Source of the DNA: Treponema sp.
Lineage (GTDB): Bacteria > Spirochaetota > Spirochaetia > Treponematales > Treponemataceae
Direction: 5' to 3'
DNA length: 41,889 bases
NCBI GenBank assembly: GCA_018385315.1
Contig: JAHAZJ010000073.1
Location: 1-41,889, forward strand
The notes under the pieces were generated by a model. The model saw only the letters and a list, made by a program, of their open reading frames with translations. It had not been told where the DNA came from and searched no databases. A program made the translations under genes and the position numbers. The first letter of the stretch is position 1, and every line of letters starts with the position of its first letter. Of this stretch, positions 34,545 to 41,889 are shown piece after piece.

Positions 34545-34781
34545 TTATATCCCCCATTTTCTTATGTTTTATTTATTATAAATTTTTTAAATTTAATAAT
34601 AATAATAATAAGTGCTGTGAATTTTGTGTATAACTAGTTTAATTCTTTATACTAAATAGAATTAAAATGTTTATAACCCTATGATTTGAATTCACTTTTT
34701 ATACACTTATTCACATTTTACTCAATTATTGTAATTTTATCCACAAATTTAGATTACTTATTCACTTTAAATTAACGAGTG
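34545..34781. other. Candidate oriC: DnaA boxes, DnaA-trio-like repeat and AT-rich stretch between dnaA and dnaN
   Basis: DnaA-box-like 9-mers: TTATCCACA at 34737-34745 (perfect), TTATTCACA at 34707-34715, TTATACACT at 34699-34707, TTATTCACT at 34758-34766, all on the plus strand, and TTATACACA on the minus strand at 34625-34633. Next to the last box lie six TAA triplets ending in G (34594-34611), oriented as a DnaA-trio read 3' to 5' away from the boxes. Beyond it is a stretch of A and T only (34569-34593) that could be the unwinding element. Box positions are direct observations; origin function is inference from layout. Confidence 0.7.
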
Positions 34782-36203: not shown

Positions 36204-36261
36204 GGGATTTATTATCCTAGACTTCTTAAAAAATCGCAAGACTAACGATAGTGTGTTTTAA

Positions 36262-36408: not shown

Positions 36409-38382
36409 ATGTCAGCAGAAGAAGAAAAAAAGAGTTATGGTGCTGAAAATATTCAGGTATTAAAAGGACTTGAAGCAGTTAGAAAACGCCCTGGTATGTA
36501 TATCGGTTCAACTGGTCCTAAAGGTCTTCATCACCTTGTTTATGAAACTGTAGATAACTCTATTGATGAAGCAATGGCAGGATTTTGTGACAATATTGTT
36601 ATTGCTTTGGAAAAAGATGATGTGGTACGTGTTGATGATAATGGACGAGGTATTCCAGTAGATATTCATCCAACTGAAAAAATTAGTGCTTTGGAACTTG
36701 TACTTACTCGTCTTCATGCTGGTGGTAAATTTGATAAAGGTTCATATAAGGTTTCTGGTGGTTTGCATGGTGTAGGTGTTTCTTGTGTAAATGCTCTTTC
36801 AGACTGGCTGGAAGCTACTGTAAAAAGAGATGGACATATTTATCGTCAGACATATGCAAGAGGAATTCCAAAGTCAAAAGTTGAAGTAATTGGCGATACA
36901 GATGAACATGGAACTTCAATCAGATGGAAAGCTGATAAATCTATTTTTACAGTAACCACAACTTACGATTGGGATGTACTTATTCAGCGTCTTAAAGAGC
37001 TTGCGTTCTTAAACAGTGGTATTGTTATTACTTTTAGAGATGAACGACTGGAAAATCCAAAAGAAGAAGTTCTTAAATATGAAGGTGGAATTGTTCACTA
37101 TGTAAAAGAATTGAATTCAAAAGCTAAGCTTACATATCCAGAAGAACCAATTTATATTACTGGTGAAAGAGATGATGTAATTACAGAACTTGCTTTTCAG
37201 TATAACGAAACATATTCAGAAAATATTCACACTTATGTAAATGATATTAGAACAGGTGATGGTGGTACTCATCTTGATGGTTTCCGTTCTGCACTTCTTT
37301 CTGTACTTTCTAAAGCCCTTGATAGCAATGAAAAACTTAAGAAAAAAATGCCTAAAAAAGATGGCAAACTTGACCCAAAAGAAGATCCATATGAAAAACT
37401 TAATGGAGATGATGTTCGTGCTGGTTTAGTTGCTGTTCTTTCAATGAAGGTTCCTGAACCAGAATTTGTTGGTCAGACAAAAGATAAGCTTGGAAATCCA
37501 GAAGTAAGAGGAATTGTAGATTCACTTGTAAAGGATAAGCTTACTGTTTTCTTTGAACAGAATCCTCAGGTTTTGGAAAAAGTTCTTGAAAAATCTATTG
37601 GAGAAGCAACAGCCAGAATTGCAGCTCGTAAAGCAAAAGAAGCTTCACGTAAAAAATCTGGTATTGCTGGTTTTAGAAAACCTGAAAAACTTTCAGATTG
37701 TTCAATCAAAGATGATCCTTCTAGATGCGAAGTTTATATTGTCGAAGGAGATTCTGCAGGTGGTTCTGCTAAAAAAGGACGAGATTCTCAGACACAGGCA
37801 ATTCTTCCTCTTTGGGGAAAAATGCTTAATGTAGAAAAGGTTGCTGCTGATAAAGTTATTGGAAACGATAAACTTGAACCAGTAATCAATACATTAGGTG
37901 CAGGTTTTGGAAAAGATTTTAATATTGAAAAACTTCGTTATGACAAAATCATTATTATGGCCGATGCCGATGTTGATGGTTCTCATATTCGTACTTTGTT
38001 GCTGACTTTCTTTTTCCGCTATATGCCACAGCTTATTACAGATGGACATGTATATTTAGCTATGCCTCCATTATTCAAAGTTCAGCTTGGAAAGAAAGAA
38101 CCAGTTTATTGTTATTCAGATGCAGAACGAGATGCAGCTTTAGAAGCTTTAGGAGATCAAAGAGATAAGGCTGATGTTCAAAGATATAAAGGTCTTGGTG
38201 AAATGGATGGTGACCAGCTTTGGGAAACAACTATGGATCCTGCACGTAGAAAGATGCGTGTTGTAACAATTCCTGATGCAGAGGCAGCAGATAGAATTTT
38301 TACAGTTTGTATGGGTGAAGAAGTAGAACCTCGCCGTGAATTTATTGAATCTAATTCAAGTTATGCAAATCTTGATATTTAG
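36409..38382 (+). CDS. gyrB: DNA gyrase subunit B
   Basis: A 657-aa type IIA topoisomerase subunit: N-terminal GHKL ATPase (YIGSTGPKGLHHLVYETVDN, VDDNGRGIPVDIH, VSGGLHGVGVSCVNALS), transducer, then TOPRIM (EVYIVEGDSAGGSAKKGRD, IIMADADVDGSHIRTLLLTF) and the C-terminal VQRYKGLGEMDGDQLWETTMDP. It uses ATP to drive supercoiling with GyrA. The ribosome site is AAGGATAT before ATG 36409. Trp469 in ILPLWGKMLNVEK occupies the place of E. coli Lys447, a known quinolone-related position. gyrA follows after 42 nt, so they form an operon. Confidence 0.97.
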   Translation: MSAEEEKKSYGAENIQVLKGLEAVRKRPGMYIGSTGPKGLHHLVYETVDNSIDEAMAGFCDNIVIALEKDDVVRVDDNGRGIPVDIHPTEKISALELVLTRLHAGGKFDKGSYKVSGGLHGVGVSCVNALSDWLEATVKRDGHIYRQTYARGIPKSKVEVIGDTDEHGTSIRWKADKSIFTVTTTYDWDVLIQRLKELAFLNSGIVITFRDERLENPKEEVLKYEGGIVHYVKELNSKAKLTYPEEPIYITGERDDVITELAFQYNETYSENIHTYVNDIRTGDGGTHLDGFRSALLSVLSKALDSNEKLKKKMPKKDGKLDPKEDPYEKLNGDDVRAGLVAVLSMKVPEPEFVGQTKDKLGNPEVRGIVDSLVKDKLTVFFEQNPQVLEKVLEKSIGEATARIAARKAKEASRKKSGIAGFRKPEKLSDCSIKDDPSRCEVYIVEGDSAGGSAKKGRDSQTQAILPLWGKMLNVEKVAADKVIGNDKLEPVINTLGAGFGKDFNIEKLRYDKIIIMADADVDGSHIRTLLLTFFFRYMPQLITDGHVYLAMPPLFKVQLGKKEPVYCYSDAERDAALEALGDQRDKADVQRYKGLGEMDGDQLWETTMDPARRKMRVVTIPDAEAADRIFTVCMGEEVEPRREFIESNSSYANLDI

Positions 38383-38424: not shown

Positions 38425-40944
38425 ATGCTAGAAGAATATAAAACAGAAGCTGGTGGAACCGTAATTAAAATTCCAATTGAAGATGAAGTTAAACAGGCTT
38501 ACATTGACTATTCAATGTCAGTTATTGTTCAGCGTGCTCTTCCAGATGTTCGTGATGGTCTTAAACCGGTTCATCGTCGAATCATGTATGCAATGGACAC
38601 ACTCCATCTTGCAAGTGGCGGCAAAACAAAAAAATGTGCCACTATTGTTGGTGAAGTACTTGGTCATTATCATCCACATGGTGATGCTTCTGTTTATGAT
38701 GCTCTTGTTCGTCTTGGACAGGACTTTGCTCAGAGATATACAACAGTAACTCCACAGGGAAACTTTGGTACTATTGCTGGTGACCCTGCTGCGGCTTATC
38801 GTTATACCGAAGCTAAAATGTCTAAAATCACAGAAGAAATGGTTGCAGACATTAATAAAAATACAGTTGATATGGTTGCCAACTTTGACGACACTACAAC
38901 TGAACCTGCTGTTCTTCCTGGTGCATTCCCATTCCTTCTTTGTAACGGTACAACAGGTATTGCTGTAGGTATGGCTACAAATATGCCAACTCATAACTTA
39001 AGGGAAGTAGCTTCTGCAATTGGTGCATATATTGATAATCCTGATATTACAATTGATGAACTAATGCAACATATTAAAGGACCGGATTTTCCTACTGGTG
39101 GTATTATTTATGGTACTGCAGGAATTAGAAAGGCATATACAACTGGTCGAGGAAAGATTACAATCCGTTCAAAATTTACTATTGAAACAGATAAAAAGGG
39201 ACGTGAAAAAATTGTATTTACAGAAGTTCCTTATGGTGTAAATACAACAACAATTATTAAAAAAATTAATGAACTTAAAGAAAATAAAGTTATAGAAGGA
39301 ATTGTTGATGCCAATGATGAAACTTCGGATCGTGTTGGTATGCGTCTTGTAGTTGAACTTAAAAAAGGTGCAATTACAAAAATAGTTCTTAATCAACTTT
39401 TCTCAAAAACAGATTTGCAGGCTAACTTTGGTGTTATTAATCTTGCTTTGGTACCACAGGAAAAGGATGGAGAACCTCGTTATAACGAACCAGGATATCT
39501 TACACTTCCACAGACATATTTAAAGCCTGAAATTCTTACACTTAAACAGCTTATTGCTCATTTTGTAAAACATCGTGATGAAGTAATTACTCGCCGTACA
39601 ATTTATGATTTGAAAGTTGCAAAACACAGAATGCATATTTTGGAAGCTTTAATTACAGCAATCAATAATATTGATGAAGTTATTAAAATTATAAAAGAAA
39701 GTCGTGATACAGAATCTGCTAAATTAGCATTGGCTAAAAGATTTGGTTTTGATGAAGAACAGACTCAGGCCATTGTTGATATGCAGTTGAAGAGACTTAC
39801 ACATCTGCAGATTGAAGATTTACAGAAAGAAATTAAAGAGCTTCAGGCTTGGATTGATTATCTTCAGGATCTTCTTGATCATCACGAAAAAATCTTACAG
39901 CTCATTAAAGATGATACAAATAAGCTGGCAGAAAAATATGGTGATAATCGTCGCACAGATATTATTCATAATGAAATTGAAGCCATTAATGTTGAAGATA
40001 TGATTAAGGAAGAAGACGTTGTTGTCATGATTTCTAAACTTGGTTATATCAAACGAGTTTCTGTTACTAAATATAAAAAGCAGGGTAGGGGTGGTACAGG
40101 AAGTAATAGTACTACACTTATTGAAAACGATTATATTAATCAGTTGTTTATTGGTTCAACAAAAGAAATGTTGTTGTTCATAACAAATGCAGGTAAAGCA
40201 TACTGGCTTAAGATTCATGAAATTCCAGAAGCTGAAAAAAATAGTCGAGGTTCAAACATCAAAGGTATTTTACAGGTTGGACCAGATGAAGAAATTACAA
40301 CAATTGTTTCGCTTAAAGAATTCTCTGATGATCAGTATCTGTTTATGACAACTGCAAAAGGTGTTGTAAAGAAGGTTAAGACTTCAGAATTTACAAATGC
40401 AAAAACACGTGGAATTATTGGAATTAAACTTAACGATGGAGACAAACTGATTAGTGCCGTTAAGACATCTGGAAGCTCTGAAGTAATGATGGTTTCTCGT
40501 TGTGGTAAGGCATTAAGAATTAACGAAGATACAGTAAGAACAATGGGAAGAGCAAGCTGCGGAATTAAAGGAATGAAGCTTGCAGAAGGTGATGAAATTG
40601 CTGCTGCTGTAGAAGTTAAGGAAGATTCTAATATTATACTTCTTACAGAAAAAGGATATGGAAAAAGAATTTCTTTTGAACTTTTCTCAACTCATGGAAG
40701 AGGAACTGGTGGTCAGAGAATCTTTGGAAATACTGATGGTAAAGGTGAAATTATTGGAGCTCTTGATGTTAAAGATAAAGATGAAGTTGTTTGTATGACC
40801 AGTCAGGGAAAAACTTTAAGATTTAAGGCATCAGAAATTAAAGAACAGGGTCAAGGAGCTTCTGGAGTAAAGATGGTTAAGGTTACTGAACCAGATTACT
40901 TAGTTGGAATTGACAAAGTTCAGGATAAAGATGATGAAAATTAA
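38425..40944 (+). CDS. gyrA: DNA gyrase subunit A
   Basis: An 839-aa cleavage and wrapping subunit. The N-terminal breakage-reunion domain shows DYSMSVIVQRALPDVRDGLKPVHRR, VGEVLGHYHPHGDASVYD and the catalytic Tyr127 in AAAYRYTEAKM. A coiled-coil gate follows, then the six-bladed C-terminal propeller with a GyrA-box-like KQGRGGTG near residue 550, which supports gyrase rather than topoisomerase IV ParC. Ala88 replaces the Ser83 of E. coli in the quinolone region; Asp92 (E. coli Asp87) is kept. AGAGGAATTAG is the ribosome site. A 12-bp hairpin follows the stop codon. Confidence 0.97.
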   Translation: MLEEYKTEAGGTVIKIPIEDEVKQAYIDYSMSVIVQRALPDVRDGLKPVHRRIMYAMDTLHLASGGKTKKCATIVGEVLGHYHPHGDASVYDALVRLGQDFAQRYTTVTPQGNFGTIAGDPAAAYRYTEAKMSKITEEMVADINKNTVDMVANFDDTTTEPAVLPGAFPFLLCNGTTGIAVGMATNMPTHNLREVASAIGAYIDNPDITIDELMQHIKGPDFPTGGIIYGTAGIRKAYTTGRGKITIRSKFTIETDKKGREKIVFTEVPYGVNTTTIIKKINELKENKVIEGIVDANDETSDRVGMRLVVELKKGAITKIVLNQLFSKTDLQANFGVINLALVPQEKDGEPRYNEPGYLTLPQTYLKPEILTLKQLIAHFVKHRDEVITRRTIYDLKVAKHRMHILEALITAINNIDEVIKIIKESRDTESAKLALAKRFGFDEEQTQAIVDMQLKRLTHLQIEDLQKEIKELQAWIDYLQDLLDHHEKILQLIKDDTNKLAEKYGDNRRTDIIHNEIEAINVEDMIKEEDVVVMISKLGYIKRVSVTKYKKQGRGGTGSNSTTLIENDYINQLFIGSTKEMLLFITNAGKAYWLKIHEIPEAEKNSRGSNIKGILQVGPDEEITTIVSLKEFSDDQYLFMTTAKGVVKKVKTSEFTNAKTRGIIGIKLNDGDKLISAVKTSGSSEVMMVSRCGKALRINEDTVRTMGRASCGIKGMKLAEGDEIAAAVEVKEDSNIILLTEKGYGKRISFELFSTHGRGTGGQRIFGNTDGKGEIIGALDVKDKDEVVCMTSQGKTLRFKASEIKEQGQGASGVKMVKVTEPDYLVGIDKVQDKDDEN

Positions 40945-41017: not shown

Positions 41018-41046
41018 TTGACAAATTATTTTATTTAATAAATAAT
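41018..41046 (+). promoter_or_regulatory. Candidate promoter of a small RNA
   Basis: A consensus TTGACA (41018-41023) and AATAAT (41041-41046) are 17 bp apart. No protein gene follows; a terminator lies about 80 nt downstream. Confidence 0.4.
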
Positions 41047-41052
41047 AGTTTT

Positions 41053-41132
41053 TGGGTAAAACTAGATTTAAAAATAGTTTAGGGAAAGAAAACATCAGGC
41101 AAGGCTGGTCGACAATGCGATCAGCCTTTTTT
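41053..41132 (+). ncRNA. Candidate small RNA of about 80 nt between gyrA and the DnaA-box/parS region
   Basis: The candidate runs from the predicted start of the TTGACA promoter to a strong terminator. A 5' hairpin can form (TAAA-A-CTA at 41057-41064 with TAGTTTA at 41075-41081, one bulged A), followed by a purine-rich single-stranded linker (GGGAAAGAAAACAUCAGGCA) and the terminator stem. It does not match tmRNA, 6S, SRP RNA or a riboswitch I know, and no gene lies downstream in the window. It could instead be a leftover attenuator or simply the distal terminator of gyrBA. Confidence 0.35.
41101..41132 (+). terminator. Strong rho-independent terminator
   Basis: An 11-bp stem (AAGGCTGGTCG with CGATCAGCCTT, one G-U pair), 6-nt loop ACAATG and a T tract to 41132. 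Confidence 0.9.
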
Positions 41133-41165
41133 AATTTAAAAGTGTTTGTTCATAAATCAAAGAAG

Positions 41166-41237
41166 TTATCCACAATTTATTCACAAATGTGGATAAGTAC
41201 AAAAATAGAAATCCACATTTGTCACAAGTTATCCACA
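41166..41237. other. Second DnaA-box cluster, downstream of gyrA
   Basis: Three perfect boxes TTATCCACA: 41166-41174 (plus), 41188-41196 (minus, seen as TGTGGATAA) and 41229-41237 (plus). There is also TTATTCACA at 41177-41185, and weaker 9-mers at about 41209-41217 and 41219-41227. This is denser and closer to consensus than the dnaA-dnaN cluster. It may be part of a split origin or a DnaA-titrating/control site. Confidence 0.7.
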
Positions 41238-41272: not shown

Positions 41273-41847
41273 TGTTTCACGTGAAACGGCATCTTTTATG
41301 ATAAAGAAAAAGTAGCTTTGTTTCACGTGAAATTTTAAAAAAGTATTTCATAATATAAATGTGTTGAATTATAAAAATATTTTTAAGAAAGATAATATTT
41401 GAGTTCAAAGAAATTATTTTAATAAAAAGGTGTTTCACGTGAAACTCTATCGTTCAAAAAAATATGAATAAATAGATAAGGTTATAAAAGCATAATGTTT
41501 CACATGAAACATTTAATTCAATTTTTTTATTGTTATGTTTCACGTGAAACTGGACTTATATTATAAAAATGTTCCACGAGAAACAATTCTAATTTATTTG
41601 AAGTTGGACTTCTATAATTAATAGCACGAATGTTTCACGTGAAACCATATCGTTCAAAATAATAAGAATAAATAGAAAAGGTTATAAATATAAAATGTTT
41701 CACATGAAACATTTAATTCAATTTTTTATATTGTTATGTTTCACGTGAAACTGGACTTATAATATAAAAATGTTCCACGTGAAACAATTCTAATTTATTT
41801 GAAGTTAGACTTCTATAATTAATAGCACGAATGTTTCACGTGAAACT
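41273..41847. repeat. Array of at least eleven parS-like centromere sites
   Basis: Sites match the chromosomal ParB-binding palindrome TGTTTCACGTGAAACA. Starts: 41273, 41319, 41431, 41496, 41536, 41570, 41631, 41696, 41737, 41771 and 41832, each 16 bp. 41273, 41431, 41536, 41631, 41737 and 41832 differ only at the last base. 41496 and 41696 have CACATG in the centre. 41771 has GTTCC, 41570 has GTTCC plus a second change, and 41319 ends AAATT. ParB (Spo0J) would load here and recruit ParA (Soj) and SMC for chromosome segregation. No parA or parB is in the window. The first two sites stand outside the tandem repeat. No protein gene is seen from 40945 to the window end. Confidence 0.9.
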
Positions 41848-41889
41848 CTATCGTTCAAAATAATAAGAATAAAAAGAAAAGGATAAAAA
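41431..41889. repeat. Tandem repeat of about 200 bp, four parS sites per unit, running off the window
   Basis: Unit 1 is 41431-41630 (200 bp), unit 2 is 41631-41831 (201 bp) and unit 3 starts at 41832 and is cut by the window end. Units 1 and 2 differ by about a dozen substitutions and one indel. Site-to-site steps are 65, 40/41, 34 and 61 bp in both units. Non-parS stretches such as ATCGTTCAAAA, GGACTTATA and TCTATAATTAATAGCACGAA are conserved too. Confidence 0.9.

Follow-up and report, generated by a model that had tools for sequence, protein, structure and literature searches.

The way in which bacteria coordinate replication initiation with segregation is an open question, with the known links running via proteins (ParA/Soj acting on DnaA), and the locus described here raises it at the level of DNA sites: does a dense cluster of DnaA boxes lying beside a parS centromere mark the place where replication begins, or does it have another role? 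The window analysed is one whole contig (C71) of 41,889 bp, which belongs to a metagenome-derived Treponema assembly with 223 contigs and 2.57 Mb in total; among named organisms, Treponema from rumen and horse faeces are closest to it, the nearest one showing 94% identity in the GyrA C-terminal region. The gene order comprises dnaN and dnaA on the minus strand, gyrB and gyrA on the plus strand, a small intergenic block, a parS array and the contig end (Table 1), and the parA and parB genes are found on contig C6 of the same assembly. In the lineage of the window, the gene beyond the array points toward gyrA, which places the DnaA/parS block between convergent genes.

Table 1. Coordinates of the genes and sequence elements around the two sets of DnaA boxes in the window.
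Feature	Position	Strand	Basis or remark
dnaA–dnaN intergenic region, likely oriC	34545–34781		Conserved block of DnaA-trios, DnaA boxes, GC-skew minimum close by
Six DnaA-trios (TTATTATTATTATTATTA on the minus strand)	34594–34611	−	Direct reading; run conserved in the genus and in other families
Unwinding-module DnaA box TTATACACA beside the trios	34625–34633	−	With AAATTCACA at 34616–34624
oriC boxes TTATTCACA (34707) and TTATCCACA (34737)	34707–34745	+	Sequence match
dnaA	34782–36239	−	Pfam PF00308, PF08299
gyrB	36409–38382	+	Pfam
gyrA	38425–40944	+	Pfam
Candidate small RNA gene	41018–41134	+	Promoter TTGACA-17-AATAAT at 41018–41046; CATCAGGC linker at about 41093–41100; terminator hairpin at 41101–41128
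DnaA box TTATCCACA	41166–41174	+	Sequence match
DnaA box TTATTCACA	41177–41185	+	Sequence match
DnaA box TTATCCACA, inverted	41188–41196	−	Sequence match
Degenerate box AAATCCACA	41209–41217	+	ATCCACA-type box at the aligned position in several relatives
DnaA box TTATCCACA	41229–41237	+	Sequence match
parS array (11 sites) with tandem repeats of about 201 bp	41273–41889		Runs off the contig end and resumes on contig C202

The initial annotation had described three perfect boxes and one near-perfect box within 72 bp at positions 41166–41237, and this count holds, with three copies of TTATCCACA, the middle one inverted, and one of TTATTCACA. The copies of TTATCCACA represent three of the four perfect boxes of the window, the fourth being located in the dnaA–dnaN gap, and three of the 28 perfect sites of the whole assembly. 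The surroundings are also as they had been depicted: the cluster is tighter than the dnaA–dnaN gap, where the boxes are one perfect copy, TTATTCACA at 34707 and TTATACACA at 34625; it lies 4.9 kb from dnaA, given before as 5 kb, and its distance to the boxes in the dnaA–dnaN gap is about 6.5 kb; it adjoins a parS array with 11 sites (at most two mismatches to TGTTTCACGTGAAACA) between 41273 and 41847; and gene direction switches between the two sets of boxes, from minus at dnaA to plus at gyrB and gyrA. When the 945 bp that follow gyrA were shuffled with dinucleotides preserved, only one of 20,000 shuffles gave at least three TT[A/T]TNCACA boxes within 72 bp. Positions 41166–41237 have the sequence make-up of an extra-origin DnaA-box cluster of the DBC or datA type, with consensus boxes that are grouped away from oriC, exceed chance and are conserved.

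The possibility that this cluster is the true origin, which had been raised as one option beside half of a bipartite origin and DnaA titration next to the centromere, is not sustained by the distribution of unwinding elements. Along the minus strand of the dnaA–dnaN gap, from 34633 down to 34594, TTATACACA is followed by AAATTCACA, GCAC and six TTA trios, and a layout of boxes, then TTATTATTACTACTACTA-type trios, then an AT-rich stretch is kept across Treponema and also in other families within the order, with runs of at least five trios in 37 of 50 Treponema dnaA–dnaN gaps. This box-plus-trio arrangement is the basal unwinding system described for B. subtilis in a passage of PMC6669920, and the gap next to dnaA, with its DnaA box and DnaA-trios, has the composition of a basal-unwinding origin. 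Downstream of gyrA, the longest trio run in 90 Treponema loci is three, which is not above shuffles, and no run of more than two trios occurs within 50 bp of any downstream box in those loci. Cumulative GC skew, a check suggested in the initial annotation, turns in or beside dnaA and not at the cluster in four genomes, with minima at 36246 in the window and at 188242 in a 400-kb stretch of G015 (both at the dnaA/gyrB junction) and at 99106 and 356055 in 200-kb stretches of G024 and G001 (in or beside dnaA), the minimum coinciding with the switch in gene direction, an effect that is not fully removed. An origin relocated beside the centromere would agree with the AT-rich flank of the cluster and with a perfect-box density that is the highest in the window, and in G015 the fourfold sites of gyrA and gyrB are rich in C, which would suit lagging-strand genes; however, dnaN, whose leading-strand position is undisputed, shows the same bias over its few sites, so that this signal is probably codon choice, with conserved genes avoiding G at third positions. 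Against the conserved trio block of the dnaA–dnaN gap and the position of the skew minima, such a relocation is regarded as very improbable. Positions 41166–41237 are probably not the origin, and the replication start most likely lies in the dnaA–dnaN gap, at about 34.6 kb; picking the densest DnaA-box cluster as the origin would mislead in Treponema. As a separate observation, the trio block of one relative (L050, from G035) runs opposite to that of other relatives in its dnaA–dnaN gap, as though an inversion of the unwinding module had taken place.

The element that the cluster does accompany is the centromere. All the GTTTCACGTGAAAC parS cores of the assembly (at most one mismatch) map either to the end of this contig or to the first 191 bp of C202, which adds four parS on the other side of the array. 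C202 starts with the common repeat unit and continues with the same genes that are found behind the array in the nearest relative (L105), and this shared repeat and gene order indicate that C71 and C202 are neighbours. The tandem unit of about 201 bp contains several parS (41431–41889; G000:C202:1-191, L268), and the assembly broke there, the array having at least 15 sites. A cluster of 16-bp parS near the origin, together with parA and parB in the genome, corresponds to a chromosomal ParABS centromere.

A tie between the cluster and parS had been suggested from their closeness in the window, and it extends to the relatives: up to 10 kb after gyrA, a parS is found no more than 150 bp away from 88 of the 99 perfect boxes, against an expectation of 9.7, and boxes follow the moved arrays in three lineages (L058 from G001, L060 from G032 and L062 from G031), where the array is 3–7 kb from gyrA and perfect boxes occur among its parS sites. 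In G100, G065 and G142, three genomes that are complete or nearly so, a single array contains all exact parS, and the box cluster is in it or directly beside it. That the boxes belong to parS rather than to gyrA is strongly supported by these sequence comparisons. Moreover, the boxes show a regular disposition on the helix. Distances between same-strand boxes peak at 9, 11–12, 20–21 bp and onward, those of inverted pairs at 10–12, 21–23 and 31–33 bp, and the spacing follows a period of 10.3–10.6 bp (R of 0.79 for same-strand and 0.75 for convergent boxes, with 0 of 2000 random sets as high), a signal that persists when each distinct spacing is counted once. Species differ in their spacings yet keep the same phase, which points to selection for a given face of the helix and hence to DnaA–DnaA contact. 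A frequent module consists of two boxes in one direction followed by an inverted one.

The conservation of the cluster was followed in 87 Treponema loci that extend 500 bp or more beyond gyrA and are non-independent samples in all locus counts, and in 10 loci of other families. After gyrA, at least two consensus boxes within 75 bp are present in 58 of the 87 Treponema species and at least three in 40, whereas at least two parS are found in 72 of the 87 loci. In the 1.5 kb after gyrA, the Treponema loci hold 272 consensus and 158 perfect boxes, where shuffles predict 27.4 and 1.0, respectively; their densities reach 2.12/kb for consensus and 1.22/kb for perfect boxes, as compared to 0.068/kb and 0.003/kb, respectively, within the dnaA, gyrB and gyrA genes. 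Chance boxes in AT-rich spacer DNA would fit the base composition of the region and the lack of boxes in some species, but not an excess over shuffles from about tenfold (consensus) to 150-fold (perfect), nor the helical phasing and the linkage to parS, which together rule this explanation out, its probability being negligible. Over the 1.5 kb after gyrA, about one third of the sampled species do not reach two consensus boxes within 75 bp, and the single-contig genome G179 carries parS after gyrA with no perfect box nearby, which indicates that the element is not essential throughout the genus. The arrangement of DnaA boxes with parS is common, not universal.

In the 10 loci of other families, parS is usually present after gyrA, where boxes of any kind are scarce and the density of perfect ones is 0, while their dnaA–gyrB gap contains 4.7 boxes/kb (2.9/kb perfect), against 0.55/kb in Treponema. 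Boxes in this gap, upstream of dnaA, were seen in L068, L070, L072, L073 and L074. It is suggestive, from 6–10 outgroup loci, that a second set of boxes moved from upstream of dnaA to the centromere. Such a reversal would agree with the cluster being the distal half of a split origin, in which DnaA bound here would loop to the dnaA–dnaN module and aid its opening, replacing the former boxes upstream of dnaA. Passages on the bipartite B. subtilis origin report that a distal group of boxes increases the local amount of DnaA at the trios (PMC6669920) and that the origin forms loops (PMC5295017). However, the gap between the two sets in B. subtilis is about the length of dnaA, whereas here it is about 6.5 kb, and more than 10 kb where the array moved, and the boxes track parS rather than the origin and are missing in many species. 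Box clusters in both gaps flanking dnaA, as in a bipartite origin, were not found either, since the dnaA–gyrB gap of Treponema is nearly devoid of boxes and the second cluster is beyond gyrA. A split origin is considered unlikely.

Between gyrA and the cluster, there is a candidate small RNA of about 80–100 nt, placed at 41053–41134, with a strong promoter match, two hairpins with the near-invariant CATCAGGC in between, and a terminator, whose stem shows changes on both sides in seven of its eight pairs among 17 close sequences. No structure was returned by RNAalifold for 31 diverse sequences, in an alignment that mixed subtypes, and no Rfam family matched the candidate. It occurs in 49 of 90 Treponema loci under a strict pattern and in 29 of 59 genomes with a covariance model (some of the matches being weak), which in most close relatives locates it immediately behind gyrA, usually as the sole strong match; a weak match (E 5.7e-4) lies next to the moved array of G031. 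This conserved promoter and candidate RNA, ending about 32 bp upstream of the first box, would be in keeping with a DnaA that acts here as a transcription factor, for instance for the small RNA. The boxes are nevertheless downstream of the terminator and, in the lineage of the window, between convergent genes, a location with no obvious promoter operator, which makes a transcriptional role highly doubtful. A broader proposal, in which the small RNA, the phased boxes and parS would form a device coupling initiation to segregation, so that ParB/ParA occupancy would set the amount of DnaA held or DnaA would gate the loading of the partition complex, is judged unlikely.

The interpretation preferred here, which is deemed moderately probable, takes in the boxes, their conservation and helical phasing, their linkage to parS and the absence of trios, all of them directly observed in the sequences, and regards 41166–41237 as a conserved DnaA-binding regulatory cluster, either sink or hub, within the parS centromere and not as the replication start. 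Initiation would follow the loading of DnaA from its boxes onto the adjacent DnaA-trios of the dnaA–dnaN gap. DnaA would also assemble on the centromere boxes, whose position on one face of the helix would let neighbouring molecules touch. At about 6.5 kb from the origin, the cluster would be copied within seconds of initiation, and the doubled sites may absorb free DnaA, holding initiation down until more DnaA is made. ParA and ParB are partners of DnaA control in other bacteria, and a location inside the ParB/parS complex would set DnaA beside them. The binding of DnaA, the sign of its effect and the contact with ParA/ParB are thus predictions from the arrangement of sites.

A section of PMC5295017 reports that ParA/Soj acts directly on DnaA in B. 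subtilis, which suggests that a cluster in the ParB–parS complex could put DnaA next to its regulator, and that the joint loss of six extra-origin clusters leads to early initiation; in E. coli, datA lowers DnaA-ATP, as stated in a passage of PMC13220808. Since the genome has 28 perfect boxes, the three of the cluster would make a modest sink. A search for an Hda homologue gave only sub-threshold model matches, the best being dnaA itself, so that no RIDA-type regulator was found by that model. Another reading is that of a DARS-like site, where ADP-DnaA would exchange its nucleotide and be reactivated. The module of two boxes followed by an inverted one matches the order of the E. coli DARS cores as located here (PMC8682772), with one box facing two opposed ones, but the match is weak, because three boxes allow only four orientation classes, and the spacings within the core differ, with 14 and 12 bp in E. 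coli against 11 and 11 bp here; a DARS-like function is held to be quite improbable.

A second conserved extra-origin DnaA-box cluster was noticed elsewhere in the assembly (G000:C200:30191-30413; L269:4192-4414), with two groups of boxes separated by about 200–217 bp, between STAS-like and polyprenyl-synthetase-like genes (identified by eye) and near a cheB-like gene. It is present in G024, G010, G004, G015, G003 and G002, the same spacing of perfect boxes recurs in G100, G142 and G065, and no parS was found at this cluster. In addition, a ParA-like gene is found with other genes at positions 993–3470 of L263 (G006:C57), and perfect DnaA boxes come after them, which may represent a plasmid or an integrated replicon.

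In the literature covered (titles, abstracts and selected passages, with few subscription journals), no report was found of DnaA boxes inside the parS array of a main chromosome. The arrangement is new and its parts are known, and in terms of sequence the link with the centromere has good support. With DnaA and parS sites physically combined, conserved and moving together, a possible coupling between initiation and segregation becomes testable on a 72-bp element.

As compared to known systems, the bipartite oriC of Bacillus subtilis and Helicobacter pylori also has two box clusters, one on either side of dnaA and one of them with an unwinding element, whereas the second cluster of Treponema is beyond gyrB–gyrA, about 6.5 kb from the unwinding module, and moves with parS. 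The DARS1 and DARS2 sites of Escherichia coli share a three-box module with opposed boxes, at the different spacing given above. The six DBCs of Bacillus subtilis are likewise chromosomal groups of consensus boxes outside oriC, expected to absorb free DnaA, but the Treponema cluster is embedded in an origin-near parS array, travels with parS and keeps a helical register. The datA locus of Escherichia coli is similarly a cluster of high-affinity boxes outside oriC that is duplicated early in the cycle, although it acts together with IHF and does not belong to a centromere, whereas the Treponema cluster is centromere-borne. Finally, as in the origin-proximal parS clusters of other chromosomal ParABS systems, many 16-bp parS are found near oriC and both ParA and ParB are encoded, while in Treponema the DnaA boxes are interleaved with the parS sites or directly beside them.
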